DNA from: Sulfurimonas hongkongensis
GTDB taxonomy: Bacteria; Campylobacterota; Campylobacteria; Campylobacterales; Sulfurimonadaceae
Length of the DNA: 53,242 bases
Direction of reading: 5' to 3'
NCBI RefSeq assembly: GCF_000445475.1
Contig: NZ_AUPZ01000014.1
Coordinates: 1-53,242 of the forward strand
The notes beneath the pieces were generated by a model, which worked only from the letters and a program-made list of their open reading frames with translations, had not been told where the DNA came from and ran no database searches. Shown piece by piece: positions 33,947 to 53,211 of the stretch. Both the position numbers and the translations under genes were made by a program. Every line of letters starts with the position of its first letter. Positions within the stretch are counted from its first letter, which is position 1.

Positions 33947-33975
33947 ACCATTAATAAGGTAGGAATCTGAAGGTA

Positions 33976-34414: not shown

Positions 34415-35032
34415 ATGAATCAAAAAATGATGAATGGCGATTTTAAATCGAGAGTAAATGGTGCGCTTCAAACTTTAAAAGAAGGTAAAGGCGTAATTGT
34501 TGTAGATGATTATAATAGAGAAAATGAAGCAGATATAATTTTTTCTGCGCAAAATTTAACAAAAGAACAAATGGCACTTTTAATAAGAGAGTGTAGCGGG
34601 ATAGTTTGTTTATGTTTAACTAAACAAAAAGTTGATGAACTTCAACTTCCAATGATGGTTCAGGATAACAACTCAAAATTTCAAACACCGTTTACTGTTT
34701 CAATAGAATCAAAAGATAATGTTACAACAGGTGTGTCAGCCCAAGATAGAGTTACAACAATTAAGTCTGCTATTTCTAGCGATGGAGCATTTAAAATTGT
34801 CTCTCCCGGACATATTTTTCCATTAAGGGCGAATGAAAACGGTGTCTTAGGTCGAGCCGGTCATACTGAAGCTAGTGTTGATTTGATGAAGTTAGCAAAG
34901 TTAGAACCTTTTGCAGTTTTATGTGAGATAACAAATCACGACGGAACAATGGCAAAAGAAGACGATATTAAACAATTTTCTGAAAAATACGCTATGCCTA
35001 TTATTAGTGTAGAAGATATAATTAACTATTGA
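34415..35032 (+). CDS. ribB: 3,4-dihydroxy-2-butanone-4-phosphate synthase
   Basis: Converts ribulose-5-phosphate to the four-carbon precursor of riboflavin. The 205-residue monofunctional RibB has DDYNRENEADI (acidic metal loop), IRECSGIVCLC, GVSAQDRVTTIK and GHTEASVDLMKLA, all diagnostic. There is no GTP cyclohydrolase domain. It is carried in an integron cassette together with its own promoter region and FMN riboswitch, so it is expressed without a cassette promoter. A chromosomal riboflavin gene set presumably exists elsewhere, which would make this a second, regulated copy. Confidence 0.95.
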   Translation: MNQKMMNGDFKSRVNGALQTLKEGKGVIVVDDYNRENEADIIFSAQNLTKEQMALLIRECSGIVCLCLTKQKVDELQLPMMVQDNNSKFQTPFTVSIESKDNVTTGVSAQDRVTTIKSAISSDGAFKIVSPGHIFPLRANENGVLGRAGHTEASVDLMKLAKLEPFAVLCEITNHDGTMAKEDDIKQFSEKYAMPIISVEDIINY

Positions 35033-35034
35033 AA

Positions 35035-35106
35035 AGATAATAAAACTTCATAGTCAATAAATGTTCTAATGGTTATTTATTGGCTAGTGTGATTATTTAG
35101 TTATTT
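35035..35106 (+). other. attC site after ribB (degenerate)
   Basis: AGTCAATAAAT and ATTTATTGGCT form the arms. The left box is degenerate (AATAAAAC) and the right box is GTTATTT at 35100. It is related to the AGCCAATAAATT family but has drifted. Confidence 0.7.
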
Positions 35107-35174
35107 AACAGTCTTATAGGAGCCAATATTTAACCCTAGTGCGGGTCAAATATTGCTCTCCTTAAAAGTTATGT
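35101..35174 (+). mobile_element. cassette consisting only of an attC site
   Basis: Between the cores GTTATTT (35100) and GTTATGT (35168) there are only 68 bases, and they form one attC: ATTTAAC, AGGAGCCAATATTTAACCC, GGGTCAAATATTGCTCTCC, GTTATGT. No gene fits. Probably an excision product that lost its cargo. Confidence 0.75.
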
Positions 35175-35201
35175 TCAGTCAAATTAAATTAAAGGATATC
35201 T

Positions 35202-35498
35202 TTGTTTTGTTCAAAATGCGGTAATGAAAATATTAAAGATGCAAATTTTTGTAATACTTGTGGCGAATCCTTAACTGTTGTTAATGCTTTTAGTACTATA
35301 AATGGAGACGGTAATTTAAACTTTGGTCAAAACAATACAATAGTTTCTGATAATATATCTGTAAACTATCAAAAGATTAGTGACCCTATTGCGTATATTA
35401 ATAGAGATAAAATTATTCCAATTAAACTTGGTGCAATACCAGTTACAAATAAACTAACCATTTTTGGGAATTTGATTTCACAATATTTGATGATATAA
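35202..35498 (+). CDS. zinc-ribbon protein, probably truncated
   Basis: 98 residues from a TTG start chosen because AAAGGA precedes it and no ATG is closer. The N-terminus CSKCGNENIKDANFCNTCGE is a double-CxxC zinc ribbon. A low-complexity Asn-rich stretch with NGDGNLNFGQNN follows, and then no recognisable domain. Zinc-ribbon proteins of this kind usually continue into a membrane or other domain, so the short tail before the attC suggests loss of the 3' part. Confidence 0.6.
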   Translation: MFCSKCGNENIKDANFCNTCGESLTVVNAFSTINGDGNLNFGQNNTIVSDNISVNYQKISDPIAYINRDKIIPIKLGAIPVTNKLTIFGNLISQYLMI

Positions 35499-35500
35499 AA

Positions 35501-35560
35501 ACATAACAAAAACGAGGAGACACAATAATTTAAAATTATCGATCAAGACAAACGTTAACT
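35501..35560 (+). other. attC site (end of the zinc-ribbon cassette)
   Basis: ACATAAC and GTTAACT boxes around the short palindrome AATAATTTAAAATTAT. Bases 35561-35709 after it hold no gene I can support. Confidence 0.65.
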
Positions 35561-35709
35561 GAATTTAGCTTGGAAAATCATTCCTAAAGGACAGGCATAC
35601 TTTTAAAGACATTTATTATTGGCTATTCATCGCAGGAGGCGAAGTGTTGAACGGGAATCTTCGCGTGAGGTATTTACAACGACATTTTGGACGCCGTAGA
35701 GGAAAACAG

Positions 35710-35978
35710 ATGAGTTTTTTTTCGGTGTCATTATTTTCTATACGATAGCCTGGTTTTCTTTACCCTGGATTGGACCAAAGGACATCTCCGAGTGTTTTAT
35801 CATAGGATTGATCTGGGTCTGCTCGATGACATTATTGGATATATATTTTGGAAAGGCAGTCTTCCGTTTGTCATGGACAAAGATTCTGGAGGACTTCAAT
35901 CCTAAAAAAGGCTATTTGCTAGGCATAGGAATGATATTGCTATTCTTTTGCCCAACATTGATTTTTCTACTAAGGTAA
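35710..35978 (+). pseudogene. small membrane protein, frameshifted in a T8 tract
   Basis: ATG at 35710 with GAGG upstream reads MSFF and then runs to a stop. The -1 frame, entered at the run of eight T (35713-35720), encodes GVIIFYTIAWFSLPWIGPKD and continues for about 85 residues with three hydrophobic segments to TAA at 35976. One extra T would make it whole. Codon use differs from its neighbours (more G and C), which suggests another source. The BrnT start is three bases after its stop. Confidence 0.6.
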
Positions 35979-35981
35979 AAT

Positions 35982-36275
35982 ATGATTTACCGTGCTAACA
36001 AACCAGAGGAGGCAATCAAAAGCCAAATCAATAAAGAAAAACATGGAATTGATTTCGTAGATGCGCAAAATCTATGGCGAGATGAAAATGCACTTATTAT
36101 TCCTGCAAATATTGTAGATGAAGAAATAAGATATGCTTTAATTTCAAAATTTCAAAATAAATGCTATATAGCTATTTTTACACTAAGAAGTGATATATAC
36201 AGAATTATTAGTGTTAGAAGATGCAGAAAAAATGAGGAAAAAAATTATGAAAAAGATAACGGCCCAAGAGTTTGA
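35982..36275 (+). CDS. brnT: BrnT-family toxin
   Basis: 97 residues with the BrnT signature KHGIDFVDAQNLWRDE, later strands YIAIFTLRSDIYRIISVRR, and an Arg/Lys-rich end. BrnT is a RelE-fold ribonuclease toxin neutralised by the DNA-binding BrnA. The gene overlaps the antitoxin gene by 29 bases, the usual toxin-first order of this family. A second BrnT/BrnA pair sits in array 2. Confidence 0.88.
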   Translation: MIYRANKPEEAIKSQINKEKHGIDFVDAQNLWRDENALIIPANIVDEEIRYALISKFQNKCYIAIFTLRSDIYRIISVRRCRKNEEKNYEKDNGPRV

Positions 36276-36519
36276 TAAAAAGTTTGATGATAGTGAAGAT
36301 ATTACTGAGTATTTAGATTTCTCATCTGCAATAAGACTTAAAGATATAAAAAAACTAAAAACGGAGACTAAAAAAGTCAATGTTGACTTCCCTGAATGGA
36401 TAATAAACTTACTTGATGAGGAAGCTAAGAAGATTGGAGTAACAAGACAATCAATTATTAAAGTTTGGATTGCTGAAAGATTAAAAGAAGAAACTGGGAG
36501 CTTTAAAAAAATAAGTTAA
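36247..36519 (+). CDS. brnA: BrnA-family antitoxin
   Basis: About 90 residues from the ATG at 36247 (MKKITAQEFDKKFDD); a frame starting at 36190 runs through the toxin gene and is not used. The C-terminal half is a ribbon-helix-helix: VNVDFPEWIINLLDEEAKKI, then GVTRQSIIKVWIAERL. It probably binds its own promoter with the toxin. Its stop codon overlaps the first box of the attC at 36514. Confidence 0.88.
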   Translation: MKKITAQEFDKKFDDSEDITEYLDFSSAIRLKDIKKLKTETKKVNVDFPEWIINLLDEEAKKIGVTRQSIIKVWIAERLKEETGSFKKIS

Positions 36520-36581
36520 CAAAACATAGGAGCCAATAAGTTACCTAGCGGTCACTCATTGGCTCTATTCAAACGTTATCC
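36514..36581 (+). other. attC site (last one with arms in array 1)
   Basis: AGTTAAC and GTTATCC boxes, arms GGAGCCAATAAGTTACC and GTCACTCATTGGCTC. It belongs to the AGCCAATAA family. Confidence 0.85.
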
Positions 36582-36597
36582 GCTCACTGCGTGACCG
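36575..36597 (+). repeat. 22-bp hairpin unit closing array 1
   Basis: GTTATCCGCTCACTGCGTGA and two more bases, then the core GTTAATC. The same unit starts the mini-cassettes and occurs at 53205. The TTA of the terminal core is the stop codon of mutS7 on the other strand, so the array ends exactly at that gene. Confidence 0.8.
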
Positions 36598-39500
36598 TTA
36601 ATCCCAATCATCCAAAACAAATTCATCAGAGTCATCTTGAGCTTTAGGATTATTAATTTCTGGCTCTTTTACTTCAACTTCTTTGGGTTTACTCATCTGC
36701 TCTTCAAACTTTAATTCTAAACCTTTTGAAGTCATTACAAAGCCATCAACCTTGAGTTTACCGTTGTGTATCTCGTTATGATGCTCTTTACAAAGAGGGA
36801 TAAGATTGTGTTTGTTGTCTTGGTGGAAGTGACCTATAAAACCAGCTTTATCTGCAAGTGAGCGTTGTGAGATGTGGTGGACATCTTCTGCCATGGCTCC
36901 ACAAATAACACACTTTGTCACATAAAGCTCTTTGTTATACTTGCTCGTTTTTTTCTTTACAAGTAGCTCTAACTCATCAAAGTCATTTGCAAGTCTTTTT
37001 CTTATCTTGTTTGCAATACTCAAAAAATCTTCATCCATATGTAGAGACTTTGCAAACTCTAAACCATAGATGCTACTTCCACTTCCAGCCTGTAGAACTC
37101 TGTTAAAGACAAGTGCATCTTTTAGCTCATCGTACTCAACACTTAGATGCAAGTTTACTACATTATCAAGCGTGCTTATCTCTTTCATGCTTGAGAGTTG
37201 ATGCAGGTGCGTTGCAAAGAGAAAAAGTGAACGAAGTTGTGAGAGTTTGATGATGGCAGATGAGACTATAGCTACGCCTGAGAGTGTCTCAGTTCCGTGA
37301 CTTATCTCATCTCCGAGTATAAGTGAGCGAACTGTTGCACGGTTAAATATATTTTTAAGCTCTAGCATCTCCACTGCAAAAGTTGAGAGTCCTTTTGCAA
37401 GATTGTCTTTTGAGACTATACGAGTAAAAAGAGAGTCAAAGAGAGAGAACTTCATAACAGATGCACTTACAAAAAAGCCAGCTTGTGCCATCAAAACAGC
37501 TATGGCGATACTCTTCATAAGTGAAGACTTTCCACTAGAGTTTATACCATACAAAAGCACACCATTTATGTCATGCCCATCATGCACACCAACATCAAGC
37601 ATTACAGTGTTTGGATGTGGTAAGTCCATATATGCGCGATTACCCATTACAATATCGTTTGGAACATAGATGCCAACTCTTTGCTGAGTCTCTATAAGTG
37701 GATGTCTTAGCTGCATAACTTGCATAAAGTTTTCATCCTCTTTAACGTCGATTATCATAGGTCGTGAGTGGTTATGTTCTTGTGCTACTTTTGATGAACT
37801 TACAGCTACATCTAAGTCCGAAATATAGGCTATAACTCTATCAAAAAGCAGAGAATATCTTCTCTCATAAAGAGCTTGAAGTTTTAAAAATCTATCTTTT
37901 ACTAAGACTACGATTTTTCTACGATTTTTCATGATATTGTCAGAGATGGTATCTGTAAAGGCAGAGGTTATTTTTACGCTATTTGTGAGCTTTTTAACAC
38001 TAAAATCTTTAAACTCTTCATGCTTTTTAAACTCACTCTCTATCATAGAAAAACGAGTCTTACTAAGAGAGATATAGTAACCCTCTTTTTCTAAAAGCCC
38101 CAAAGTTACAAAGCGACCAGATGTACTTGCATTTGTACTCTCTAGCATCTGCTCAATTTTAGCCATAATGTCCCCAAATGCTATAAGCATAGCTCTGTTT
38201 TGCTCGACTAAGATATCTACAGCCTCATCAACTCCTCTCATCAAAAAGTTTTCATCAACACTGTTGTTTGTAAAACGACGAGAGACATCTAAGTCTATGC
38301 TTTTTGTTATATCTCTTAAAAACTCATCAAGCTCACTCTCATGAAAAGGAGTTTTTTGAATTTTATGTTTTTTAGCATATAACATCAAATCTTTTACATT
38401 TAACATCGACTCATATATATGGTTCATCTCAAAAGGGTGAAGTCGCCCAAGATTTAGCCGCCTAGAGAGTCTCTCTAAGTCATAAATCCCTCTCATAGTC
38501 TCATCTAAAAACCTTGTATGGGATGAAACCCTCTCTATAAGGTTGTAACGACGTTCTAGCTCATCTTTTTCTATGATAGGGTTTAGAAGCCTCTCTTTTA
38601 AAAGCCTTCTACCAATAGCTGTTGAACTTTTGTCCATCATCTTTAAAAGTGTAAATTCATTTCTATCTTTTGAGATGACTCCAACTTGCTCTAGTGCATT
38701 ATTTCCAAGGTACATAAAGCGGCGGTTATCTATGAGTTTCGGAGTATTTAGTTTTTGAACTATATGTATATCATGCTCTATTACAAAGTGGATTAAAATA
38801 GCTAAAGCTTCCGTTATCATCGGGTTTCGCTCAAGGTCAAGGTGTTCTATGGGAGAGAGTAGTGACTCGATTTGATAGGCTTCTTTGAAGAGTTCATTTT
38901 GAAACTCTATGCGTGGTCGCTTATTGTTTATGCAGTAGTGATAATGTTCGGCAATTTCAAGATACTGTAAAACATGCCTCTGATCACTCACTCCATCTAA
39001 AAAAGTAAGCACTACTTCTGAGGTCCTATATATGTTTAAAAGATTAAAAACTTCATCTAGTGCATATGCTGGATCTTCACTTGTTCCATGTGTCTCATAG
39101 AGCCAAGTCTTTCCTGTGGTTACATCTATGGCAGAGTATCCAATATTGTAGATGCCTCTGTAGCAATCAACTAAGATAGAGACAATAAAGTTATCATCAT
39201 TGTCCACAATATGCTCAAAATTGGTCCCGGGTGAGACAATTTGTGAGATATATCTGCTAATTTTTGGTGGATTTCCTTTTTGCTTTACGATGATGATTGT
39301 GTATTTTTGCTCTTGGATAAGACGGTTTAAGTATCTCTCAAAAGAGACCGAGGGAACACCAGCTAAGAGTGGATTTCTAACTGAATTTTCAACTATGCTT
39401 TTGTTTTTTTTGGTAAGTTGGATATTTAAAAGCTCAGCCATCTCTTTTGCTTTACCAACTTGTAACTCATCGTTGTTAACTTCATAAACCTCAAAAAAAG

Positions 39501-39645
39501 TTCCAATCTCCATAAAAACAACGGTATTTTTGCCGTACTTTTTCTCAAAATGAGTTTGGAGTTCAAAATATGTTTGAGTTAATAAATTTTCTTTGTTGTT
39601 AAGTATAAAACTTACATCTGATGAGAGCATATAGTACTTTTCCAC
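36598..39645 (-). CDS. MutS7-type mismatch repair protein with C-terminal HNH nuclease
   Basis: 1015 residues. The N-terminal mismatch-recognition part reads [20 protein letters not shown] (the FxE-type site), the middle is the MutS core and clamp, and the ATPase has Walker [12 protein letters not shown] near residue 700 and [11 protein letters not shown]. Residues 912-962 form an HNH nuclease ([31 protein letters not shown]). A charged tail follows. MutS7 proteins with this HNH are known from Epsilonproteobacteria, octocoral mitochondria and some giant viruses. The stop codon coincides with an integron core site, so the 3' end may have been touched by integration. Confidence 0.93.
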
Positions 39646-42500: not shown

Positions 42501-45260
42501 ATGGACTACAAAGAGACACTACTTTTACCTACTACAAACTTTGCCATGAGAGGCAATCTGATAAACAATGAGCCTTTAAGATATGATGCTTGGGATGAAA
42601 ACAAAGTCTATGAAAAGATGAAAGCTAACCGCAAAGATGCACCTAGTTTTACTCTTCATGATGGACCTCCATATGCAAACGGAAACACTCATATAGGTCA
42701 TGCACTAAACAAGATTTTAAAAGATATCATTGTAAAACAACACTATTTTGCCGGCAAGTCTGTCCGTTTTACTCCGGGTTGGGATTGTCATGGTCTTCCA
42801 ATCGAGCAACAAGTTGAGAAAAAACTTGGTGGCAAAAAGAAAAAAGAGCTTTTAGAAGTCTCTAAAGTAAGAGAACTTTGTCGTGAGCATGCTAGAAAAT
42901 TTGTAGATATACAAAGAGATGAGTTTAAAAAACTCGGTATCTTGGCTGATTGGGAAAACCCTTATGTGACTATGGACTTTAAATTTGAGGCAAATATATA
43001 CAGAACTCTTTGCAGTGTTGCAAAAGCTGGACTTCTTATAGAGCGTAGCAAACCAGTCTACTGGTCATGGGCTGAAAGAACTGCACTTGCAGAGGCGGAA
43101 GTTGAGTACGAGGACAAAGAGTCTCACTCTATCTATGTAGCATTTAAGTTAAGCGATGAGGCAAAAGCAGAGACAGGACTAAGTGGCAAGGCTGCCCTTG
43201 TCATCTGGACAACTACACCGTGGACTCTTCCATCAAACACAGGCATCTCTTTAAACCCAGAGGAGAAGTACGCACTAACTACTGATGGCTTTATTGTAGC
43301 TCGTGATCTGCACGAATCACTACTAGAGTTAGGAGTTGTAAAAGGCGAAATAGCTAAAGAGATAGACCCTAAAACTCTAGAGAACAAAAAAGCAATCAAC
43401 CCACTAAACGGTAGAACTTCTACAGTAGTTTTAGGCGATCATGTAATGATGGACAGTGGAACTGGTTGTGTACACACTGCTCCAGGACACGGTGAAGATG
43501 ACTATAGAGTTGGACTAAAGTACGGCTTAGAAGTTCTTATGCCAGTTGATGAGACTGGATGCTTTGATGAGACCGTAGTAAAAGAGAAGCTTCTTCCAAA
43601 TCCCAAGGGGTTTGTAGGACAACTTATCTTTAAGTGTAACGATAAAATCCTAGAACTTTTAGGCGATGCGCTTCTTTATGAGTCAAAGTTTACTCACTCA
43701 TATCCACACTGCTGGAGAAGTCACACTCCTCTTATCTTTCGTGCAACTAAGCAGTGGTTTATATCTGTAGATGAAAAACCAAAGACACAAGACAAGACTC
43801 TAAGAGAGATAGCTCTTAGTGAAGTCCAAAAGACTCTTTTCTTTCCAAAAACAGGTAAAAAAAGACTAGAATCCATGGTAGCAAATCGCCCTGACTGGTG
43901 TATCTCTCGCCAAAGAGATTGGGGTGTGCCTATAGCATTTTTTAGAGTTAAATCCAGTGGTGAAGTTCTCTTTGATGAGAAGGTTTTAAACTTTGTAGCT
44001 ATGATATTTGAGATGCAAGGTAGTGATGCTTGGTACTCGATGTCTATAGAAGAGCTTTTATATCCTGGAAGCGGCTACAAGGCGGACGAGCTTGAAAAAG
44101 TAACAGATATTTTAGATGTTTGGTTTGATAGTGGTTCAACTTGGTATAGTGTTTTAAAGTCTCGCAACTACGATGCTGGCGATTACCCAGCTGATCTTTA
44201 TGTAGAGGGAAGTGACCAGCATCGTGGTTGGTTTCAATCTTCTATGTTTTTAAGTGCCGCGGTTGAACATCAAGCACCTTACAAAGGAGTCCTAACTCAC
44301 GGTTTCACAGTCGATGAAAAGGGCGAGAAGATGTCAAAATCAAAAGGCAATGTTGTCGCTCCTGAGAAAGTTTTAAAAGAGTATGGAAGTGAGATACTTC
44401 GCCTTTGGGTAGCATCTAGTGACTATCAAGGGGATTTGAAGATTTCTCAGGGTATTTTAAAACAAAACTCCGAAAACTATAGAAAGCTCAGAAATACTTT
44501 TAGAATCATGCTTGCAAACATCAACGACCTTGAAGTTCTAAGCCCGTACTCGGAGATGGGAGAGCTAGATAGATGGATACTAAGCGTTGCTAGAGAAGTT
44601 TTTAACAACTCTCATAAGTCATTTTCTGAGTACAACTATGTTCATGGAATGAGTCTGCTAAACAACTTTATAGTAAATGAGTTAAGCGGAATGTATATAG
44701 ACATGACAAAAGACTCACTCTACTGTAATGCAAAGAGTGACAAAAAGAGAAAAGCATCTCAAAGTGCGATGGCTATCATCACAAAGTCGATGCTACTTCT
44801 AATAGCTCCGATACTCACATATACAGCAGATGAGATAGTTGAGAATGCTCCTGCTATCATAAAAGGAGATGCATCGAGCATCTTTGATATGGTTTATGAA
44901 GAGATAAAAGAGATAGAGACTTCATTTGATGAAGAGTATATGGTAAAAGCAAGAGAGAGTTTTGCAACTATAGTAGATACACTTAAAAAAGAAAAAATCA
45001 TAAAAAACACTTTAGAGTTAGCCATCTCATGTAATTCTAAAGCAATCCTCGACATGGACTCAACCGATGCTGAGGACTGGTTTGTAGTCTCAAAAGTATC
45101 TGATGAAGAAGAAAAAGAGTCTCTAGGAAGCTTCAAAGTTGGTGATGACTCATTTACCATCACAAAAGCAACTGCTCACAAGTGCCCAAGATGCTGGAAG
45201 TACCAAGCAGCAAATGAAGATGAAACATGCGAGAGATGTGCAAGAGTTGTAAATGCCTAA
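42501..45260 (+). CDS. ileS: isoleucyl-tRNA synthetase
   Basis: 919 residues, the normal bacterial size. The class I motifs are the HIGH variant HIGH in PPYANGNTHIGHALNK and GEKMSKSKGNV. The editing domain has WTTTPWTLPSNTG. A C-terminal zinc finger (CPRCWKYQ, CERCARVV) is complete, as in bacterial type IleRS. Its last codons overlap the start of a small membrane protein gene. Confidence 0.97.
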   Translation: MDYKETLLLPTTNFAMRGNLINNEPLRYDAWDENKVYEKMKANRKDAPSFTLHDGPPYANGNTHIGHALNKILKDIIVKQHYFAGKSVRFTPGWDCHGLPIEQQVEKKLGGKKKKELLEVSKVRELCREHARKFVDIQRDEFKKLGILADWENPYVTMDFKFEANIYRTLCSVAKAGLLIERSKPVYWSWAERTALAEAEVEYEDKESHSIYVAFKLSDEAKAETGLSGKAALVIWTTTPWTLPSNTGISLNPEEKYALTTDGFIVARDLHESLLELGVVKGEIAKEIDPKTLENKKAINPLNGRTSTVVLGDHVMMDSGTGCVHTAPGHGEDDYRVGLKYGLEVLMPVDETGCFDETVVKEKLLPNPKGFVGQLIFKCNDKILELLGDALLYESKFTHSYPHCWRSHTPLIFRATKQWFISVDEKPKTQDKTLREIALSEVQKTLFFPKTGKKRLESMVANRPDWCISRQRDWGVPIAFFRVKSSGEVLFDEKVLNFVAMIFEMQGSDAWYSMSIEELLYPGSGYKADELEKVTDILDVWFDSGSTWYSVLKSRNYDAGDYPADLYVEGSDQHRGWFQSSMFLSAAVEHQAPYKGVLTHGFTVDEKGEKMSKSKGNVVAPEKVLKEYGSEILRLWVASSDYQGDLKISQGILKQNSENYRKLRNTFRIMLANINDLEVLSPYSEMGELDRWILSVAREVFNNSHKSFSEYNYVHGMSLLNNFIVNELSGMYIDMTKDSLYCNAKSDKKRKASQSAMAIITKSMLLLIAPILTYTADEIVENAPAIIKGDASSIFDMVYEEIKEIETSFDEEYMVKARESFATIVDTLKKEKIIKNTLELAISCNSKAILDMDSTDAEDWFVVSKVSDEEEKESLGSFKVGDDSFTITKATAHKCPRCWKYQAANEDETCERCARVVNA

Positions 45261-45384
45261 TTTTGCAGAGCCAGTTTCAGCTACATTTATCGCAGTTACA
45301 GTAGCTGTGATATTTGTAGGAATTGCTATTGCTATTGTGTTTGTTAAGATGGGGAAGAAGTCTAGAAATCCAAAGGGCTTATAA
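45253..45384 (+). CDS. small single-helix membrane protein after ileS
   Basis: 43 residues, MPNFAEPVSATFIAVTVAVI followed by more of one long hydrophobic helix and a basic tail (KMGKKSRNPKGL). The start overlaps the ileS end by 8 bases, and the tail overlaps the integrase end on the other strand by 23 bases. Coupled small membrane genes after ileS are plausible, but I do not recognise a family. The integron may have replaced its original 3' end. Confidence 0.5.
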   Translation: MPNFAEPVSATFIAVTVAVIFVGIAIAIVFVKMGKKSRNPKGL

Positions 45385-46330
45385 CTTTAGCCTTGTTCAT
45401 CTCACTCACTACATGAGTATATATCATGGTTGTCTCAACACTTTTATGACCTAAAAGCTCCTGTATACTCCTGAGATCTATCCCAGCTTGTAGTAGATGC
45501 GTAGCGTAAGAGTGTCTAAAAATATGTGAAGTTACACGCTTGTTTAGGTTTGCCTTTTGAGATGCTGCTTTTATGTTTCGTCCTAAAGTTTGCGGATGGA
45601 TGTGATGTCTTCTTTTTTCATGTGTTCTTGGGTCTTTAGATATGTTTTTCATAGGAAATAGGTACTGCCATTTGGTTTCATACTTTGCTGATGGGTATTT
45701 TTTTTCTAAAGAGTAAGGTAAATAAACACTTCCAAAACCATTGTCTATATCATTTTTATGCAGCTTTTCAACTAGCCTTACTTGAGCTAAGAGCTGCTCT
45801 TTTAGCTTTTTAGGAAGAGGGATAGTTCTGTCTGTTAAAGATTTTGAATCCCAAATATATATTTTTTCATATCCAAAATCAATATCTTTTATTCTGAGAT
45901 TTAAAGCCTCATTCATTCTTAACCCACATCCGTACATAAGATGTACTATAACACTATAGTCCATAGGTATATTTTGTAGTACTCTTTTCACTTCATCTTT
46001 TGTAAGCACAACTGGTATATGTTTTCTTTCTTGAGAACGAAATGCCTGAATATTCCACTCGCTTATATCAACACCAAGCACCTCTTTGTATAAAAATAAG
46101 ATAGCACTAAAAGCCTGGTTCTGAGTCGTTGGCGAAACTCTGTCTTTTACCGCTAACTTAGTAAGGTACTGTTCTATTTCTGCTTTACCCATTTCGATGG
46201 GATGTTTTTTGTGATGAAATAAGATGTAATGCTTAATCCAATGCACATAAGTTTTTTCAGTTGAGAAACTATAGTGTTTAAAACGAATCTTATCTCTTAC
46301 TATGTCCAACAATTTCTTTTTAACTTCCAT
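45362..46330 (-). CDS. intI: integron integrase (IntI family tyrosine recombinase)
   Basis: 322 residues. Catalytic residues are visible: Arg138 (GCGLRMNEAL), Lys163, His269, Arg272 (HIFRHSYATHLL), His295 (LLGHKSVETT) and Tyr304 (TMIYTHV). The insertion specific to IntI is present at about 203-245 (YLPYSLEKKYPSAKYETKW, then FPMKNISKDPRTHEKRRHH). It recombines folded single-stranded attC sites with attI. The ribosome site GGAGGGG precedes the ATG. It points away from its cassettes, the classical layout. It appears intact, so both arrays may still be mobile. No LexA box was recognised upstream. Confidence 0.95.
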   Translation of the reverse strand: MEVKKKLLDIVRDKIRFKHYSFSTEKTYVHWIKHYILFHHKKHPIEMGKAEIEQYLTKLAVKDRVSPTTQNQAFSAILFLYKEVLGVDISEWNIQAFRSQERKHIPVVLTKDEVKRVLQNIPMDYSVIVHLMYGCGLRMNEALNLRIKDIDFGYEKIYIWDSKSLTDRTIPLPKKLKEQLLAQVRLVEKLHKNDIDNGFGSVYLPYSLEKKYPSAKYETKWQYLFPMKNISKDPRTHEKRRHHIHPQTLGRNIKAASQKANLNKRVTSHIFRHSYATHLLQAGIDLRSIQELLGHKSVETTMIYTHVVSEMNKAKVISPLDF

Positions 46331-46598: not shown

Positions 46599-46612
46599 AA
46601 AAAAGATTGCCC

Positions 46613-48223
46613 ATGAATGAATATAATACAGATATTGTCAAACTTACTTGTTCTTGTCCTGACTGGAAAGAGACAAGATGGCAATATAAATTAAATGACC
46701 CAAGAAGATTATGTAAACATATTATCAATAAACTTGATATAAATAATTTACCAATTGGAATATCAAAATTTAAAGAGTCTATTGAATTTTATCAAGAAAA
46801 AGAATGGGGTTTTAAAAGAGACTTTGATGAAATCATTGAGATAGGTAATTTTACTTTACTAGGTAGTGTTAGCTGGATAGATGTTTTTGATGGAGATGGT
46901 ACGAGATATGGATATTTAAATGATAGCTATACTGGTGAAAATTGGTGGTCTAAACAAAACAAACCTATAGGATACGAAAAAATCGAAGCTTTTTTTAAAA
47001 AACGCTTTGACACTATTCCTTTACCCCTGCAAGGCAAAGAGAAACAAGATATAGCCAACTACATTAAAGAGGTTATTCCGAGTAAACAAAATATTCAATT
47101 TTCAATAGAAGATGACCAATATGAGCCGTCGCCTGACGGAATATATTATTGTCTTTATGAATCAACAAGTGATTATTCTTTGGAAGATGAAGTTAGACAT
47201 ATTATTGTAAAAAACGATGAAATAATCATTGAAATGTATTACGGAAAAATATTTAAATACACTAGAGATTATAAATATGCTAAATCATTTCTTGAAAACA
47301 AAAAACAAAAAGAACAAGAAAGATTAGATAATGAGAGGCAAAAGTATGAAGAAGAATTAAAACAAAAAAGAAAAATTGCTATAGAAAAAAGCTATATTTT
47401 GGTTCAGGATTATGAAGGTGATTTATATGATATTCAAAATATTTATAATCATCCCGACGGATTATCTTGGGACGAATACGAAAAAGTAAAAAACTCAATA
47501 CTTGGTAACTATAATACTCTTCAACATCTAATAAAAGAATTTTCAATAGATATTACAACTGCGAAATTCAATAAAGCATTAAAAAATTTAAATTTTGTTG
47601 TGAAAGAATCAACATTAAATCAAAATGATTGGATACTAAAAGGTGATGGATTGCAGTATGGAATTAATTTAATTAAAGATTCCAAATATATGCATGAAAA
47701 TATACCTGACTGGTATAAAGTACACATATTTGATAATACAAAAATGAAACTCATAAAATTAGAATCTAATTTCAATATTAAAATGACTTCTACTTTGTTT
47801 GAAAAAAATAAATTCAATGAACTTTATCAACTTGTTAAACAAGAGATTGAAAACAGTCAATTAAATAATAAAATCATAGATGAAACAACAAGTAATAAAA
47901 AACTTGAAAGAGCAAAATGGTTAAGACACGTAGAATGTCCAAATTGCGGAGAAAAAACAAATATACATAAAAAAGATAAAAGAAGACGTAAAAATGGATA
48001 CATTCAGAGGTTCTATTGTAATGCGTGTAATAGTATGTTTCAAATGGATATTGAAAAGTTGGAGCAGATGATGAAAGACTATGAAAAAGATGAACTAAAT
48101 AAAGAAAAATTGATTATTACACAAAAAGAAACGGATATTCAATCATTTGAAAAAGAAGTACAAGCAGTAAAAATATCTCAAGAAAAAAATTTATTCAAAA
48201 GGTTTTTTTCTTTTTTTGAGTAG
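46613..48223 (+). CDS. SWIM zinc-finger / zinc-ribbon protein
   Basis: About 536 residues from ATG 46613 (TTG at 46607 is an alternative). The N-terminus is a SWIM zinc finger (KLTCSCPDW to RLCKHII, CxCx(n)CxH) that begins almost at the first residue, so the start may be truncated by the cassette junction 20 bases upstream. A charged coiled-coil segment (ENKKQKEQERLDNERQKYEE) lies near residues 225-250. A C-terminal zinc ribbon (VECPNCGEKTN to FYCNACNSMF) precedes a Glu/Lys-rich tail. SWIM domains bind nucleic acid or protein. Role unknown. Confidence 0.75.
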   Translation: MNEYNTDIVKLTCSCPDWKETRWQYKLNDPRRLCKHIINKLDINNLPIGISKFKESIEFYQEKEWGFKRDFDEIIEIGNFTLLGSVSWIDVFDGDGTRYGYLNDSYTGENWWSKQNKPIGYEKIEAFFKKRFDTIPLPLQGKEKQDIANYIKEVIPSKQNIQFSIEDDQYEPSPDGIYYCLYESTSDYSLEDEVRHIIVKNDEIIIEMYYGKIFKYTRDYKYAKSFLENKKQKEQERLDNERQKYEEELKQKRKIAIEKSYILVQDYEGDLYDIQNIYNHPDGLSWDEYEKVKNSILGNYNTLQHLIKEFSIDITTAKFNKALKNLNFVVKESTLNQNDWILKGDGLQYGINLIKDSKYMHENIPDWYKVHIFDNTKMKLIKLESNFNIKMTSTLFEKNKFNELYQLVKQEIENSQLNNKIIDETTSNKKLERAKWLRHVECPNCGEKTNIHKKDKRRRKNGYIQRFYCNACNSMFQMDIEKLEQMMKDYEKDELNKEKLIITQKETDIQSFEKEVQAVKISQEKNLFKRFFSFFE

Positions 48224-48226
48224 ATT

Positions 48227-48297
48227 ACATAACAAACCAGAGGAGCCAATCAGTGACCCGCACGCGGGTTACTGATTGCTCATTTTAACCGTTATAC
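48227..48297 (+). other. attC site after the SWIM cassette
   Basis: ACATAAC and GTTATAC boxes, arms GGAGCCAATCAGTGACCCG and CGGGTTACTGATTGCTC, which are nearly perfect. Confidence 0.88.
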
Positions 48298-48362
48298 ATC
48301 CACAGTCACAGTAAATTTTCTCACAGTTTTACTATTTCATATAATAATGATATACTTCTTAT

Positions 48363-48623
48363 ATGAAATATAAATATGATAGTAACAAAAGCTTATCAAA
48401 TAAGCAAAAGCATGGAATTGATTTTGAAGATGCTAAACTTCTATGGAATGATGATAGGATGGTTGAAATTTTAACATCTTATGAAGATGAAGAAAGATTT
48501 ATTAACATTGGCAAAATTAACTCCAAGTTTTATACTGTTGTTTCAACAATTCGTGAAGATAAAATTAGAATTATCTCTGCACGAAGAGCAAGAAAAAAGG
48601 AGATTGAAATCTATGAAAGCTGA
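48363..48623 (+). CDS. brnT: BrnT-family toxin
   Basis: 86 residues with the signature KHGIDFEDAKLLWNDD and ISARRARKKE at the end. It has a promoter-like TATAAT at 48341-48346 inside the cassette, so expression does not depend on position. It is diverged from the BrnT of array 1 but has the same architecture and overlaps brnA by 11 bases. Confidence 0.9.
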   Translation: MKYKYDSNKSLSNKQKHGIDFEDAKLLWNDDRMVEILTSYEDEERFINIGKINSKFYTVVSTIREDKIRIISARRARKKEIEIYES

Positions 48624-48858
48624 AGAATTTGACAAAATCTTTGATGAAAATGAGAAAGATATAATAGATTATCTTGATTTATCAACGATTAAACGACCTA
48701 ACTTAGAACCAAAAAGAATTAATATTGACTTTCCTACATGGATGGTTAAAAAACTTGATGAAGAAGCACAACACATTGGAGTAAGTCGTCAAGCAATCAT
48801 AAAAACTTGGTTAGCTGACAAAATTATGCAAATTGAACATCACAAAGAAGCTGTATAA
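48613..48858 (+). CDS. brnA: BrnA-family antitoxin
   Basis: 81 residues from ATG 48613 (MKAEEFDKIFDENEKDIIDY); a longer frame from 48481 only runs through the toxin gene. The ribbon-helix-helix part reads INIDFPTWMVKKLDEEAQHI, then GVSRQAIIKTWLADKI, close to the array 1 BrnA. It ends at the attC. Confidence 0.9.
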   Translation: MKAEEFDKIFDENEKDIIDYLDLSTIKRPNLEPKRINIDFPTWMVKKLDEEAQHIGVSRQAIIKTWLADKIMQIEHHKEAV

Positions 48859-48920
48859 TAAAACATAGTAGCCAATAAATTACCTAGCGGCAACTTATTA
48901 GCTCACTATAGTCGTTATAG
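48856..48920 (+). other. attC site after BrnT/BrnA
   Basis: AGCCAATAAATTACCTAGCGG with GCAACTTATTAGCT and GTTATAG. Same family as the sites at 30794 and 32791, although the left box (AATAAAAC) is degenerate. Confidence 0.82.
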
Positions 48921-48938
48921 ATACAAAAGGAACTTATC

Positions 48939-51900
48939 TTGCAGAATGAATTAATAGAACAATTTACTCAATACAACAAAAAAGAGTTTTACCAATGGTT
49001 AATTGTTTCTATGGTTCATCCTTCAAATCAGAAATTTGGGATTAGATGTGAGTTACTTATTCATACCCTTATATCAATCAATGAAGAGAAATTTTCAAAT
49101 AAAATATTAATAAGAGAAGAGTTTGAAGAATTTATATCTTGGTTTGAGCAAAAATATTCTAATCATTTTTTAATGATGGAAGATTTTGAACCATTTAAAC
49201 AGGCTAAATTAATACCACTTTTTTTAGATGGGGAAAAGTATTATTTCTTTTATGGATCACTTGAACGACCTTACGAAGCTTTAAAACAATTTCATGAAAT
49301 TGTTTTTTCAGTAAATATTGAAGAATTAAATAATATTAAATCTGAATTTTTATTTTCGTTACAACGACAAACAGATATTTTAACTAAGTTGAGAAGTGAC
49401 TACGAGGCTCAGTCTGAAAATACTTCCATGTATATACCGAGCTTAGAGTTTTTTAATAAATATAAATCTTTTTTTGAAGTTGATTGTGTAGATATAAAGC
49501 ACCTGCATAACTCCAAAAAAATACCTCCTTTAACAGAAACAGAAAAAATGTTTGATTTTGGCATTGATGATAGTGTTAGCAATGCCAAAATTCCTCAATT
49601 AGAAACTGATGATACAGACTTAAAAGACTCAATATATTTTTATGAAATGGGTATAAATAATTTTAATGGATTATATACAAAGATTGACAATAAGTTTTTT
49701 ATTATTCCATTTGAATCGCACATAGAAACTATCTATAACTTAACATCAAAAATAATATATAATGAAAAATTTCAATACATGGATAGAATAAATGATTCTA
49801 TGTTTCAAAGAATGATGAAGATGCTTTCATATTTTTTTAGTCCTCCACATAGACTAGATGGATTAATGGATATGTCAAAAAATATTCATTCAAAATATTT
49901 TGATACGTTAGCTCAAATTGACTCAAATAAAGTTATTTTGTTTAAATTCATTCCTCATTCAAATAATTTACAAAATTCTATAGGTGATATTGCACAGAAA
50001 TCATTTGAAGAGTTAGAAAAAATGAAATTGGTAGATGAACTTTTTATGTTTCGTTTCGAGAGAAAAAAACATATGGTTAACATGAATCAAACACCTATTG
50101 ATATGTCTGAAATTAAAATTATGATTATTTTTGAAGAACTAACTTTAAACTATATGTTAGGTTTTGCAGAGGATTGGAAAGAAAAAAATATTTTTATTTA
50201 TAACTCTTTAGATATAAAACCTATTTTGCAGTTACTTAGTGAAAAAGAGACAGATAACAATACAACACTTTGGCAATATTTAGAAGCAGAAAAAAGACAA
50301 TCTTTGCACAATAATAACCCTATACAAATGGATGCACTTGATAGCTTTGCAGTTTATTACGAAAATGAATCATTTGCGATAATGGGTCAACAACCTGATT
50401 TGATGATGTTTGTTACTCATTCTTGGAGTGATTTTTACCATAAACACCTTTATGAAAAATATCAAGACAATATTTATGAATTAGTTGAATCTAGTTTTCC
50501 CAATAAATTTAATAGAATTGCTCATCTTGGTAATTCGACTTATGAATATATTGATACTTCAATGATAGATGGTGGTCGGTGTGTGAAACATCAAAACAAA
50601 CTTATATGGATAGTTTATCCCTCTAATGGATTTAATCTAAAAGATGAAGAGATAAGAGTATCTATGTTTATAGCAGAGTTTTTAAGTTTTTATATAGATA
50701 GATATAAAGAAAGTATTTTTGAATTTTTAAAGAATTTTAGTTTTGATATCAACACTCAAGATTTTATGATATCTATTTTCCCAGATAGTTTTGTGAAACA
50801 AAATGAAGATTTAGAACATTTATTACAATATGCGAATAAAATAGATGATAAAGAAAATATTGTTTTTTCTTCGCAAATTCGTAAATATATCTATAATGAA
50901 ATTTTTACAGCTGTTGTAATTACATCTAAATTGGAAAGACTAGAAAATACATTTGGATACAAAGAGCATATAAATCCAGAGAAATATATTTTTAAAAAAT
51001 TCATTGAATCTTTACTGCTTGCATTAAATATTCAATCTCAAAAAAACTCGGTATCTAAATTTATTGAAAATATTTGGGATATAAAAGAAAGAGCTTTTGT
51101 TTTAGAAAACAAACCTGTTGATAATGCTAGACTTGAAGGTTATCAGAAACCTTTATTGTTTCAACCATCATTTATCGCAAATGTTAACCAAGAGATGGTT
51201 AACTATCTTAAACAACTTAGTATTGAGTCTAAAGAGTATTGGGTAGAAGATGCCAAACAACTTAATAATTTAATTTTTGAATTTTTACAAAAAAAACTAG
51301 AAGATAGAATTAGTCAATTCGATAGTTCCATCTTAATATATGCTTATAAACAAATTGAATATATAGAAGGCAAAAGAGAAAAAGAAAAAAATCAAATGAA
51401 GTTTGATGTAGAAAAATATATAGAGTTTGATATTCATGAAAGATATTACAAAGAAAAAATTGAAACGTCTGAATTAGCAGTTTCAGCTAAACATATTTTG
51501 CATACTACTTTAAAAGTAACACCACAAGGTGCTAAAAGTATTTCTGAACATGATTGGTATTATCTAATGGCATGTTCAAAAATAATAAATGAAACAATCC
51601 AAAGAAGTGATCAATTACATTATCGTTTAGCGAAAACTGGTATTGAGATTACAAGTTCCTATGAATTGATAGATATAGATAAATCTTCAGATATTGATTT
51701 TAACGCACATTATAAGCAAACTACAAGTTCACAAATCATTTCAGCTAAAAATGAATCTACAATTACAGAATCATCAGAAGAAGAGGAAAATACAAAAGTA
51801 TCATCTCCTTTTAATGAACAATTAAATTCAGCATGGAATAGTGAGTATGGGTTTTATTTAGAGAATATGATAAAAGTCATGATGGCTCTAGGACGATTTG

Positions 51901-52745
51901 AGATTAAAAAAGACTCATATTTTCCATTATCTCTTTTATCAGTAGAAGAAATATTTGAACATTTAAAAAATATTTTTAAAGAAACGGTAGCACTTGGTGA
52001 AATAAAAAAAATATTAGCGTTTTTATCATTGGACTTTAAAACATATAGTAATTACAAATATATTGATTATAGTATCGATAGGCTGATGAGAAAAAAGGAA
52101 AGATTAAACTTATCTCCTTTTATAAGAATAGATGACAAATATCTTTTTGGACATCAATTACTTTTAAATGCTATAGATGGTTGGACTTTTCCATTATTTG
52201 AAGGGGATAGTCCTTTTAGTATTGATGATACAAATTTGGTAAAAAAAGAACTAACTAAAATTCATGATAAACTTGATAAAGATCTAGAAATTTTGACATG
52301 TAAGGAAGCTGTAAAGTCTTTAGGTGAAGAGTTTGTCAGATGCAATATAGATAAATTCCAAACACTTTCTAAAAAATTTCAACAGAAGCCATCTTGTGGA
52401 GAAATAGATTTACTTGTTATAAATCCCAATACCAAAATGGTATTTATAATGGATGCTAAAAATGTAAATAAGAAACTCCACATGTCAGCGATAGATAGAG
52501 AGTTGAATAAGTTTCTTAAAGGCAAAAAATCATATTTAATAAAGTTAAATAAAAAATTTGATTTTATTGAAGAAAATAAAGATGAAATACTAAAGCATTT
52601 CAAAATAGAAGATAAAAGTGGATGGAAAGTTAAAAAAGGCTTTGTTGTTAATACGCTATACATTTCTGCATTTTACAAAGAAAAAGTTGACTTTGTTTTG
52701 ATTGATGATTTAGGTAAGTTTTTACAACAAGATGAAAATTTATAA
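48939..52745 (+). CDS. 1268-residue protein with C-terminal PD-(D/E)XK nuclease signature
   Basis: A TTG start with AAAGGA upstream; the first ATG is 19 codons later. Residues 1-1100 match nothing I recognise: mostly helical, no signal peptide or membrane segment, with a Ser/Glu/Thr-rich linker near 945-965. The C-terminus has the pattern of a PD-(D/E)XK nuclease: Glu in SLGEEFVRCN (about 1130), CGEIDLLVINP with Asp1157, and IMDAKN with Asp1172 and Lys1174. It fills a 3.9-kb cassette alone, unusually large for an integron. Nuclease cassettes of this kind are often anti-phage defence genes; that role is an inference. Confidence 0.8.
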   Translation: MQNELIEQFTQYNKKEFYQWLIVSMVHPSNQKFGIRCELLIHTLISINEEKFSNKILIREEFEEFISWFEQKYSNHFLMMEDFEPFKQAKLIPLFLDGEKYYFFYGSLERPYEALKQFHEIVFSVNIEELNNIKSEFLFSLQRQTDILTKLRSDYEAQSENTSMYIPSLEFFNKYKSFFEVDCVDIKHLHNSKKIPPLTETEKMFDFGIDDSVSNAKIPQLETDDTDLKDSIYFYEMGINNFNGLYTKIDNKFFIIPFESHIETIYNLTSKIIYNEKFQYMDRINDSMFQRMMKMLSYFFSPPHRLDGLMDMSKNIHSKYFDTLAQIDSNKVILFKFIPHSNNLQNSIGDIAQKSFEELEKMKLVDELFMFRFERKKHMVNMNQTPIDMSEIKIMIIFEELTLNYMLGFAEDWKEKNIFIYNSLDIKPILQLLSEKETDNNTTLWQYLEAEKRQSLHNNNPIQMDALDSFAVYYENESFAIMGQQPDLMMFVTHSWSDFYHKHLYEKYQDNIYELVESSFPNKFNRIAHLGNSTYEYIDTSMIDGGRCVKHQNKLIWIVYPSNGFNLKDEEIRVSMFIAEFLSFYIDRYKESIFEFLKNFSFDINTQDFMISIFPDSFVKQNEDLEHLLQYANKIDDKENIVFSSQIRKYIYNEIFTAVVITSKLERLENTFGYKEHINPEKYIFKKFIESLLLALNIQSQKNSVSKFIENIWDIKERAFVLENKPVDNARLEGYQKPLLFQPSFIANVNQEMVNYLKQLSIESKEYWVEDAKQLNNLIFEFLQKKLEDRISQFDSSILIYAYKQIEYIEGKREKEKNQMKFDVEKYIEFDIHERYYKEKIETSELAVSAKHILHTTLKVTPQGAKSISEHDWYYLMACSKIINETIQRSDQLHYRLAKTGIEITSSYELIDIDKSSDIDFNAHYKQTTSSQIISAKNESTITESSEEEENTKVSSPFNEQLNSAWNSEYGFYLENMIKVMMALGRFEIKKDSYFPLSLLSVEEIFEHLKNIFKETVALGEIKKILAFLSLDFKTYSNYKYIDYSIDRLMRKKERLNLSPFIRIDDKYLFGHQLLLNAIDGWTFPLFEGDSPFSIDDTNLVKKELTKIHDKLDKDLEILTCKEAVKSLGEEFVRCNIDKFQTLSKKFQQKPSCGEIDLLVINPNTKMVFIMDAKNVNKKLHMSAIDRELNKFLKGKKSYLIKLNKKFDFIEENKDEILKHFKIEDKSGWKVKKGFVVNTLYISAFYKEKVDFVLIDDLGKFLQQDENL

Positions 52746-52796
52746 CAAATCCTTGCACCGAACAGGTTCCCCTGTCAGTGAAGTCAACCGTTATGT
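52740..52796 (+). other. attC site after the large nuclease cassette
   Basis: TTATAAC and GTTATGT boxes around CACCGAACAGG and CCTGTCAGTG arms. It is unrelated in sequence to the AGCCAATAA family, so the cassette probably came from another host. Confidence 0.8.
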
Positions 52797-52812: not shown

Positions 52813-53133
52813 ATGAAAAATAAATTTATAGAAAATATTGGTGTTTGGATATTAGTTGGCTTATTAATTTTTTCAATATATTCACACTATAAGACTGGTG
52901 AAGACCTTGAAAATATATGTATCAAAGTTCAAGCATTAAATGAAGGATATTTAGACATAGAATCGCATGAAAAATTTATGTCTAATGGCATAGAGTTAGA
53001 TTCGATTGCTATAACAATGAAAAAACATAATGATTTAATGAATTCTAACTCCTCAGAAGCTAAAGCATACAAATGGTTTCGTTCTAATGCTAATGAAATA
53101 AAACAAATATGTGATAAAAGAATAGATGAATAA
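52813..53133 (+). CDS. small membrane-anchored protein
   Basis: 106 residues with one N-terminal helix (IGVWILVGLLIFSIYSHY) and a soluble domain with two cysteines (LENICIK and IKQICDK) that could form a disulfide if exported. No family recognised. It has its own cassette and the ribosome site AGGAAAAGG. Confidence 0.65.
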   Translation: MKNKFIENIGVWILVGLLIFSIYSHYKTGEDLENICIKVQALNEGYLDIESHEKFMSNGIELDSIAITMKKHNDLMNSNSSEAKAYKWFRSNANEIKQICDKRIDE

Positions 53134-53141: not shown

Positions 53142-53211
53142 ACATAACAAATCATTGGAGAGAAATATTTGACCCTTGCGGCTCAAATATTTCTCAACTC
53201 AAACGTTATCC
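53142..53211 (+). other. attC site after the small membrane protein
   Basis: ACATAAC and GTTATCC boxes, arms GGAGAGAAATATTTGACCC and GCTCAAATATTTCTC, complete. Its sequence is the intact relative of the shortened site at 33894. Confidence 0.87.

Follow-up and report, generated by a model that had tools for sequence, protein, structure and literature searches.

A probable Upx-like single-protein anti-phage nuclease on an integron cassette of Sulfurimonas hongkongensis

Integron cassettes are usually short, which raises the question of what a single gene of 1268 codons contributes to one of them. The window analyzed here, a stretch of 53,242 nucleotides of Sulfurimonas hongkongensis (positions 1 to 53,242 of contig NZ_AUPZ01000014.1, assembly GCF_000445475.1), contains such a gene. 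The original prediction, made from the DNA letters without database searches, regarded it as a candidate for an undescribed single-gene defence system. The term ‘undescribed’ is not supported, since the encoded protein is related to Upx, although it has diverged from it; Upx is already named as a single-gene defence protein and has a PADLOC model (PDLC02221) and a cryo-EM structure (PDB entry 9wuf). Because this relation to Upx is distant, the gene would represent a new branch of a known immune protein and not a new kind of system. Upx is known as an anti-phage system and was reportedly first described by Gao et al. in 2020. The reading that we consider likely is that of a Upx-like single-protein anti-phage nuclease on an integron cassette, which forms, together with one planctomycete homologue, a deep Upx branch undetected by PADLOC.

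The integron cassette that holds the gene is real: it is flanked by attC junctions, and an integrase gene accompanies the array (Table 1). The upstream junction (GTTATA, 48914) and the downstream one (GTTATG, 52790) are 3,876 bp apart and enclose this gene as the only one; the description as a 3.9-kb cassette with a single giant gene was correct. The bottom strand of the cassette’s own attC folds better than 200 out of 200 shuffles (z -3.38), and the top strand is unremarkable (z -1.51, with 19 of 200 shuffles as good). The cassette comes third in an array that lies next to a complete integron integrase gene, and this array is incomplete at its 3' end because the contig stops at 53242.

Table 1. 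Features of the integron array and of the Upx-like gene, in window coordinates.
Feature	Position	Strand	Basis
Integron integrase IntI, 322 aa, full-length	45362..46330	-	TIGR02249 1.3e-124, 415.6 bits (cut-off 265)
Cassette 1: 538-aa protein, zinc-ribbon and possible SWIM motif	46607..48223	+	matches below curated cut-offs
attC of cassette 1	48230..48295	+	sequence and folding
Cassette 2: BrnT/BrnA-type toxin-antitoxin pair	48363..48858	+	BrnA by NF047399; BrnT only by position before BrnA
attC of cassette 2, variant left end; upstream border of Upx-like cassette	48863..48919	+	sequence and folding
Integron cassette, junction to junction, 3,876 bp	48914..52790	+	GTT of attC junctions
Likely ribosome-binding site AAAAGGA	48925..48931	+	7 nt before TTG, read from sequence
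Upx-like gene, 1268 aa, TTG start, stop codon overlaps own attC	48939..52745	+	ORF and full-length homologue
Possible second PD-(D/E)XK-like fold, probably inactive, codons 280-477	49776..50369	+	low-confidence model
C-terminal half with predicted Upx fold, codons 580-1268	50676..52742	+	model pLDDT 72.5; 9wuf by Foldseek and VIA
PD-(D/E)XK nuclease domain, codons 1084-1268	52188..52742	+	aligned to Can2, Cdn1, Card1, McrBC and restriction endonucleases
D1113, aligned motif-I acid	52275..52277	+	21-row alignment
G1154-E-I-D1157 motif	52398..52409	+	alignment
D1172-A-K1174 motif	52452..52460	+	alignment
attC of Upx-like cassette, TAACAAA...CGTTAT at 52743-52794, starts in the gene’s stop codon	52743..52798	+	sequence and folding
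Cassette 4: 106-aa protein	52813..53133	+	no family above curated cut-off
attC of cassette 4	53145..53209	+	sequence

The open reading frame is present as originally described and does not arise by chance, since the longest stop-free run in 200 base-shuffled copies of the gene was 123 codons. One full-length homologue of its protein was found, encoded in a Sedimentisphaerales (planctomycete) MAG (L014:5929-9660, 1243 aa). Both proteins share 29% identity over 1,287 aligned positions (E 4e-159; 29-31% among alignments) and the same core motif including D-x-K, but the planctomycete gene lies outside any recognisable integron. The TTG start is supported by this homology, which begins at residue 4, and by the AAAAGGA motif 7 nt upstream.

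The C-terminal nuclease fold that had been predicted was found in residues 1084-1268 by comparison of the model with solved nucleases, and no housekeeping fold emerged. The CRISPR ancillary nucleases Can2, Card1 and Cdn1 and type II restriction endonucleases share this PD-(D/E)XK fold (Z of about 6-8.7, which is middling), but they have other accessory domains and in most rows only the nuclease domain aligns. The C-terminus holds an intact-looking PD-(D/E)XK core consisting of D1157, D1172 and K1174. D1157 and K1174 are invariant in all 21 aligned rows, and position 1172 is Asp in two of these rows and Glu in 19. These three residues of the original pattern stand, but its ‘Glu about 1130’ does not: acidic residues are not the rule in the column of Glu 1130/1131 across these rows, and the aligned motif-I acid is D1113. 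The latter position, occupied by E (13 rows), N (six), D (one) or V (one), falls within a long helix (~1095-1128) of the predicted model.

Neither Pfam, NCBIfam, PHROGs nor the PADLOC models gave a match to the cassette protein at E<=1. The PADLOC Upx model matched neither this protein nor its planctomycete homologue, with 0 families even at E<=10, and the protein is therefore not filed under Upx proper. The proposed PADLOC scan was thus empty, and the kinship with Upx came from profile comparison. Aligned with hhalign to six Upx-type proteins (L009, L010, L013, L021, L023 and L024, all of which match PADLOC Upx with E 1.6e-29 to 8.5e-77), columns 1-1268 of the profile of both homologues fall onto 9-1219 with E 7.1e-42. 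Taken alone, residues 1-830 also align in collinear order with the N-terminus of the Upx-type proteins (E 2.8e-9, score 85.4, compared to a best E of 0.045 and a best score of 27.9 in 20 column shuffles and E 0.25 for a reversed copy). At the profile level, this shows collinear homology with Upx-type proteins over the whole length. The link rests on intermediates, because the same two-protein profile gives only E 0.0034, over 1133-1250, against a single Salmonella Upx sequence; the sequence of 9wuf, identical in residues 422-1272 to a Salmonella frame, was not found by this profile at E<=5.

The cassette protein resembles Upx in being a single large protein (1268 versus 1272 aa) with a C-terminal PD-(D/E)XK domain that carries G-[DE]-I-D...[DE]-x-K. 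It differs in its low identity to four Upx-type rows (14-15% in the whole-length alignment, 7-15% in that of the N-terminal half and 13-17% in that of the C-terminal half), in its motif-I acid (Asp, not Glu) and in being carried by an integron cassette. In the tree, it forms a separate branch with the planctomycete protein (support 100/99), while nine Upx-type rows group apart (97/97); the eight rows scanned with PADLOC, all except L038, are Upx. A third group consists of actinobacterial proteins of ~1,210-1,310 aa (e.g., Streptomyces pFRL3 WP_181411640.1), which have a similar size and a GEIDLLV...[DE]xK tail but constitute a separate clade (100/100). Their 12-sequence profile failed to align over the full length with that of the two homologues (E 0.97), and the cassette protein alone aligns with six actinobacterial sequences only at 1053-1263 (E 2.6e-5), whereas the Upx-type profile does align with the actinobacterial profile (E 1.3e-27). 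The cassette protein and its planctomycete homologue are probably a new, deeply separated branch within the Upx superfamily, one that escapes the PADLOC model.

The predicted C-terminal half matches the solved Upx fold. A Foldseek search of the PDB retrieved 9wuf with E 4.3e-14 (next match 0.17), and VIA aligned 582 residues with Z 24.2 and an rmsd of 7.7 (next Z 8.7); model residues ~616-677 have a pLDDT under 50. The N-terminal half is poorly modelled (pLDDT 54.5) and also retrieved 9wuf (E 2.2e-6, next 0.12), with a superposition on this poor model that is no better than background (VIA Z 6.7, rmsd 25.5). For both half models, 9wuf (‘Cryo-EM structure of Upx’, 2026) is the sole PDB chain at E<=0.001. 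We should note that these models do not test the homology independently, because Upx-type relatives were among the AlphaFold inputs. The N-terminal thousand residues had been described as a region of unknown fold. This does not apply to 580-1084, which mostly align with solved Upx; residues 1-580 are poorly modelled.

In the low-confidence model, codons 280-477 resemble Nt.BspD6I (VIA Z 9.4, 164 residues). A catalytically active nuclease at this site was rejected: the acid of [DE]xK is absent (L334, two residues before K336) in this poorly aligned region, where K336 is kept only in the cassette protein and its planctomycete homologue among the 21 rows. A zincin/YbeY-like match at 551-715 was middling (Z 6.2) on a weak model. 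Two dipeptidases, the sole phmmer matches of the protein in the PDB (E 0.12 and 0.96), were taken as chance.

The genomic surroundings of the relatives differ. Upstream of the Upx-type gene of Paenibacillus (L023), with one 268-aa ORF in between, lie a type III methylase and a weak match to type III restriction; downstream, GajA/GajB of Gabija start after 66 nt. Scanning six neighbours at four other relatives revealed 0 clear defence genes. In the planctomycete MAG, an AAA/sigma-54-type regulator lies 744 nt upstream on the same strand and trp genes lie downstream on the other strand; no defence island was recognised among the translated neighbours. The actinobacterial branch occurs on Streptomyces plasmids and chromosomal contigs, and in one case the gene lies ahead of a set that includes a SNF2-type helicase. 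The profile of the two homologues matched, among 397 genomes of the phylum, the genome of origin and a 64-aa frame interrupted by two stops (E 2.9e-4; taken as chance), and, among 246 genomes of the planctomycete’s phylum, two genomes including its own. For the Paenibacillus strain, 299 genomes of its class gave three matches to the Upx-type profile, one being its own. The Upx profile gave 0 in 101 genomes from the class of Sulfurimonas, which is uninformative as the 14 control genomes also gave 0. A tblastn search of the phage collection gave no match, nor did three scans of viral contigs yield a relative.

A single-gene anti-phage role, as proposed originally, is probably the function of the cassette protein, judging from its homology to Upx, the defence island of one relative and reports of defence genes in integrons, which the accessible part of a review presents as stores of such genes (PMC12409362). 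The long N-terminal and middle part would act as sensor and scaffold, restraining the nuclease or recognising a feature of the infecting phage. Upon infection, the C-terminal domain would cut nucleic acid, more likely DNA than RNA, and this cleavage would then halt phage propagation or kill the infected cell. The cassette holds no partner gene and no methylase, and self/non-self discrimination would therefore come from the trigger and not from DNA modification; the planctomycete gene equally has no close same-strand partner. A bolder version is doubtful: both proteins would be the first-seen members of a separate, horizontally moved, cassette-borne Upx-like branch with its own trigger, and the Upx architecture would pair the active C-terminal PD-(D/E)XK domain with a second nuclease fold in the N-terminal half, catalytically dead and sensing phage nucleic acid. 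The searches of the open literature listed no study on the mechanism of Upx, no paper on Upx together with an integron and, from 2022 onward, none on Upx with cryo-EM and phage.

Alternatively, the nuclease might be directed, exclusively or mainly, at invading DNA other than that of phages, such as plasmids or DNA entering by natural transformation or conjugation. An anti-plasmid or inter-element role is made plausible by the similarly sized actinobacterial relatives on large plasmids of Streptomyces (13 matching records, the query’s own included), and Upx-type members are also found on records filed as plasmids, the Salmonella record being 4 kb. However, Upx is listed among defence systems in the accessible parts of the literature and the Paenibacillus relative sits between restriction-modification and Gabija genes, so that we consider this reading unlikely. 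It is very unlikely that the resemblance to Upx is confined to the C-terminal third and that the first 700 residues are unrelated and serve another function. Direct BLAST does hit Upx-type proteins only within ~742-1264 and the N-terminal model is poor, but 1-830 scored far above its shuffles, the subsegments 1-300, 300-600 and 460-830 align at matching Upx-type places (E 1.3e-4, 9.6e-6 and 1.1e-4, without shuffles of their own), the planctomycete protein matches a Clostridia Upx-type protein (L024) from residue 405 onward and 9wuf is the only significant Foldseek match of the N-terminal half.

Expression of the gene is uncertain because it lies in the third cassette behind attI, and, according to the same accessible part of the review (PMC12409362), transcription is lower in cassettes at a distance from the integron promoter. 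Moreover, no plus-strand promoter-like site is listed after 48571 within 48200-49000. That the cassette is stored, silent or decayed and currently has no function nevertheless seems highly improbable, given 1268 open codons, preserved aligned core residues, a plausible ribosome-binding site and five plus-strand promoter-like sites (48318-48571, in or before cassette 2). Since no plus-strand terminator-like site is listed after the latter, read-through into the cassette is possible; all these sites are consensus matches only, numbering nine on both strands versus 4.1 expected.

Read as a Upx-like anti-phage nuclease, the cassette protein extends the reported cargo of integrons to a giant protein, encoded by a single gene and probably immune in function. 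The Upx superfamily stretches beyond the reach of the PADLOC model, which misses both the branch described here (2/2 proteins scanned) and the actinobacterial branch (4/4 scanned). The public Upx structure and the residues conserved across the branches may guide the question of what triggers the nuclease.

The giant gene is located in a chromosomal integron, where it starts with TTG and encodes P0001, a protein of 1268 residues. It is the only gene of a cassette measuring 3,876 bp from junction to junction, which bears out the original description of a single-gene cassette of about 3.9 kb. The integron integrase (TIGR02249, 415.6 bits versus a cut-off of 265) adjoins a class I aminoacyl-tRNA synthetase gene (tRNA-synt_1, E 4.6e-149), probably encoding the isoleucyl enzyme, and the cassette array is incomplete because the contig stops at 53242. 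The attC-type pattern TAACAAA...CGTTAT is found at three sites in this part of the window and matches 16 times in the whole genome, versus 5 times for the reversed control pattern; the site upstream of the giant gene has a variant left end. The bottom strands of four attC sites fold better than their shuffles (z -3.4 to -6.1; equalled in 0, 2, 0, and 0 of 200 shuffles), with none of 200 shuffles folding as well as the giant gene's own site. The G+C content is 26.0% in the giant gene, 25.5-28.6% in the neighbouring cassettes, 39.4% in the synthetase gene, and 33.2% in the window.

Positions of features in the window (no prefix), on another contig of the same genome (C7), and at related loci (L)
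Feature	Position	Strand	Description
attC-like cluster	29700-36600		TAGCCAATAAATTACCTAGCGG at 30810 and 32807; two mismatches at 36530
MutS-type gene	36598-39645	-	Mismatch-repair ATPase, C-terminal HNH nuclease-like domain (MutS_V 6e-44, HNH_2 2.3e-4)
Synthetase gene	42501-45260
Integron integrase	45362-46330	-
Cassette 1	46607-48223		538-aa protein; weak zinc-ribbon match (C-terminal), possible SWIM motif (N-terminal); all matches below curated cut-offs
attC site	48230-48295
Cassette 2			BrnT/BrnA-type pair (BrnA: NF047399, 117.6 bits)
attC right end	48913-48919		CGTTATA
Gene of cassette 3	48939-52745	+	Giant gene (P0001)
attC site	52743-52794
Cassette 4			106-aa protein
attC site	53145-53209
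Second integrase frame	C7:5447-6430		One internal stop
Actinobacterial relative	L002:5848-9570		Same nuclease tail as P0001
Shorter proteins	L003:7858-9462; L017:7918-9606; L040:6811-8439	L040: -	534-563 aa, same C-terminal nuclease, N-terminus different or shorter
Paenibacillus sp. A3 locus	L023:383-13636		Upx homologue between Gabija GajA/GajB and type III restriction-modification genes, the latter separated from it by a 268-aa ORF

The second cluster of attC-like repeats lies about 9 kb from the integron, on the other side of the MutS-type gene, among short ORFs, some of which look toxin-antitoxin-like. No integrase was seen beside it in the ORF list, and the array is CALIN-like. More attC-like sites are present at or near the ends of contigs C6, C7, C16, and C20 of the same genome; together with the second integrase frame, they suggest a scattered or broken second array. 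P0001 was found in its own genome only, both among 298 evenly drawn genomes of the class and among 397 of the phylum (besides a stop-containing 64-aa frame). Of 60 genomes of the genus drawn separately, 22, its own included, contain an integron integrase above the cut-off. The integrase is thus common in the genus, while the giant cassette was not seen elsewhere in these draws.

P0001 has no match at E<=1 among the Pfam, PADLOC, PHROGs, and NCBIfam models, and its sequence finds nothing among solved structures besides two chance-level matches. A tblastn search of plasmids gave C-terminal matches only (two records at E<=0.01; 10 records at E<=5 with the last 218 residues), leading to a Streptomyces family in which the pFRL3 protein is matched by 13 records. 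A match of only E 1 pointed to a Deinococcus protein (E 3e-6 when compared pairwise), and through it to another Deinococcus protein as well as proteins of Sinorhizobium, Salmonella, and Bosea. All five match the PADLOC model of Upx, a known single-protein anti-phage nuclease (E 1.6e-29 down to 0), as do relatives from Bacillus, Paenibacillus, and Clostridia (E 7e-49, 2e-44, and 2e-47). These last relatives came from a scan of a collection of 84,980 species genomes with a C-terminal alignment, which matched 133 stretches. Among the 14 confirmed is L014, from a Sedimentisphaerales (planctomycete) MAG, which is homologous to P0001 over the full length (1,287 aligned positions, 29% identical; E 4e-159). 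Blocks conserved between the two extend from HPSNQ, close to the N-terminus, as far as GKKSYL, close to the C-terminus.

Neither P0001 nor L014 matches PADLOC Upx, even at E<=10. At the level of profiles (E-values apply to single profile pairs), columns 1-1268 of the profile of P0001 and L014 align onto columns 9-1219 of six Upx-type proteins with E 7.1e-42. Each of the pieces 1-300, 300-600, 460-830, 740-1060, and 830-1268 aligns at the corresponding place, and the score for residues 1-830 by themselves is 85.4 (E 2.8e-9), whereas 20 column shuffles score 14.5-27.9 and the reversed profile 21.4. Compared with the single Salmonella sequence, the pair profile gets no further than E 0.0034; with two relatives added it reaches E 1.8e-8 over 718-1249 (best of 20 shuffles, 0.29). 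The alignment of the pair profile to a 12-sequence actinobacterial profile fails (E 0.97), and with P0001 alone the alignment to six of the actinobacterial proteins is confined to 1053-1263 (E 2.6e-5). The 12-sequence profile does align with five Upx-type rows, over their length (E 1.3e-27).

AlphaFold2 models were built from 13-row alignments, drawn from 21 rows with the other eight left out. The model of residues 580-1268 has a pLDDT of 72.5 and a pTM of 0.65, while that of residues 1-800 is poor (54.5 and 0.36). At E<=0.001, either half finds a single match in the PDB copy searched: 9wuf, entitled 'Cryo-EM structure of Upx' and released on 2026-02-11, with 4.3e-14 for the C-half and 2.2e-6 for the poorly modelled N-half. 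By VIA-align, the C-half superposes on 9wuf with Z 24.2 over 582 residues (next row, Z 8.7). The N-half, in its poor model, reaches only Z 6.7 (rmsd 25.5), below entries of the Nt.BspD6I nickase (Z 9.4, 164 residues, model 280-477). This is a hint of another nuclease-like domain at 280-477; there, the acid before K336 is absent (L334) and K336 occurs only in P0001 and L014 among 21 proteins. By sequence, 9wuf is detected with the Upx-type profile (E 6.5e-107) but missed by the pair profile; residues 422-1272 of 9wuf are identical to the Salmonella frame over the printed alignment. Because Upx-type relatives are in the input alignment, the models are no independent test of this homology. Given the end-to-end profile match and the C-half match, the proposal of an undescribed defence system is not supported.

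The predicted C-terminal PD-(D/E)XK pattern was correct apart from one residue: across 21 aligned proteins, D1157 and K1174 never vary, and an acidic residue occupies 1172 throughout (E in 19, D in P0001 and L014). Motif I falls in column 1113 (D in P0001; E in 13, N in six, V in one). The proposed catalytic Glu 1130/1131 was rejected; it is situated beyond the long helix that carries 1113 and is not conserved.

In a tree built on the C-terminal third (22 rows, 486 columns), whose root and deep branching are tentative, with several long branches and many rows deviating in composition, P0001 and L014 group together (100/99). A second group (97/97) comprises nine Upx-type rows, of which the eight scanned (all but L038) are PADLOC Upx, and includes a Salmonella, Sinorhizobium, and Bosea cluster (99/98). 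Ten actinobacterial rows form a third group (100/100), and L039, itself a long branch, joins none of these. P0001 is a new deep branch of the known Upx superfamily, not a new kind.

The actinobacterial proteins, including those of Streptomyces plasmids, are about 1,210-1,310 aa long. PADLOC Upx matches none of the four scanned (L002, L004, L015, and L025), L002 having a weak unrelated match (E 0.011). In pFRL3, a SNF2/DUF3670 helicase gene lies downstream of the nuclease-tail gene, with one unknown gene between them and another after it. The shorter proteins look as if other sensors had acquired the nuclease tail.

Upx was reportedly described by Gao and colleagues in 2020 as a single-gene anti-phage protein. 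PADLOC was run on ten of the larger ORFs adjacent to five relatives. Next to the Paenibacillus homologue, the four scanned ORFs gave a type III methylase, GajA, GajB, and a weak match to type III restriction; of the six at other relatives, four lacked any match at E<=0.001, and the remaining two matched weakly, one to a transposition protein. Tmn and a PDC-S32 gene are found near the gene of a short Enterobacter protein that shares the nuclease tail. Two genome papers count Upx among defence systems (PMC12824646, PMC12629846), and a review describes defence genes in integrons of two Vibrio species, in one of them 9 of 57 tested cassettes (PMC12409362). Taken together, the homology to Upx, the defence genes beside the Paenibacillus relative, and the Vibrio integrons make a single-protein anti-phage nuclease the best reading for P0001. 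By inference, the N-terminal part would be the sensor, DNA the substrate of the nuclease, and a halt to phage propagation or death of the infected cell the outcome. The giant gene is probably an immune gene.
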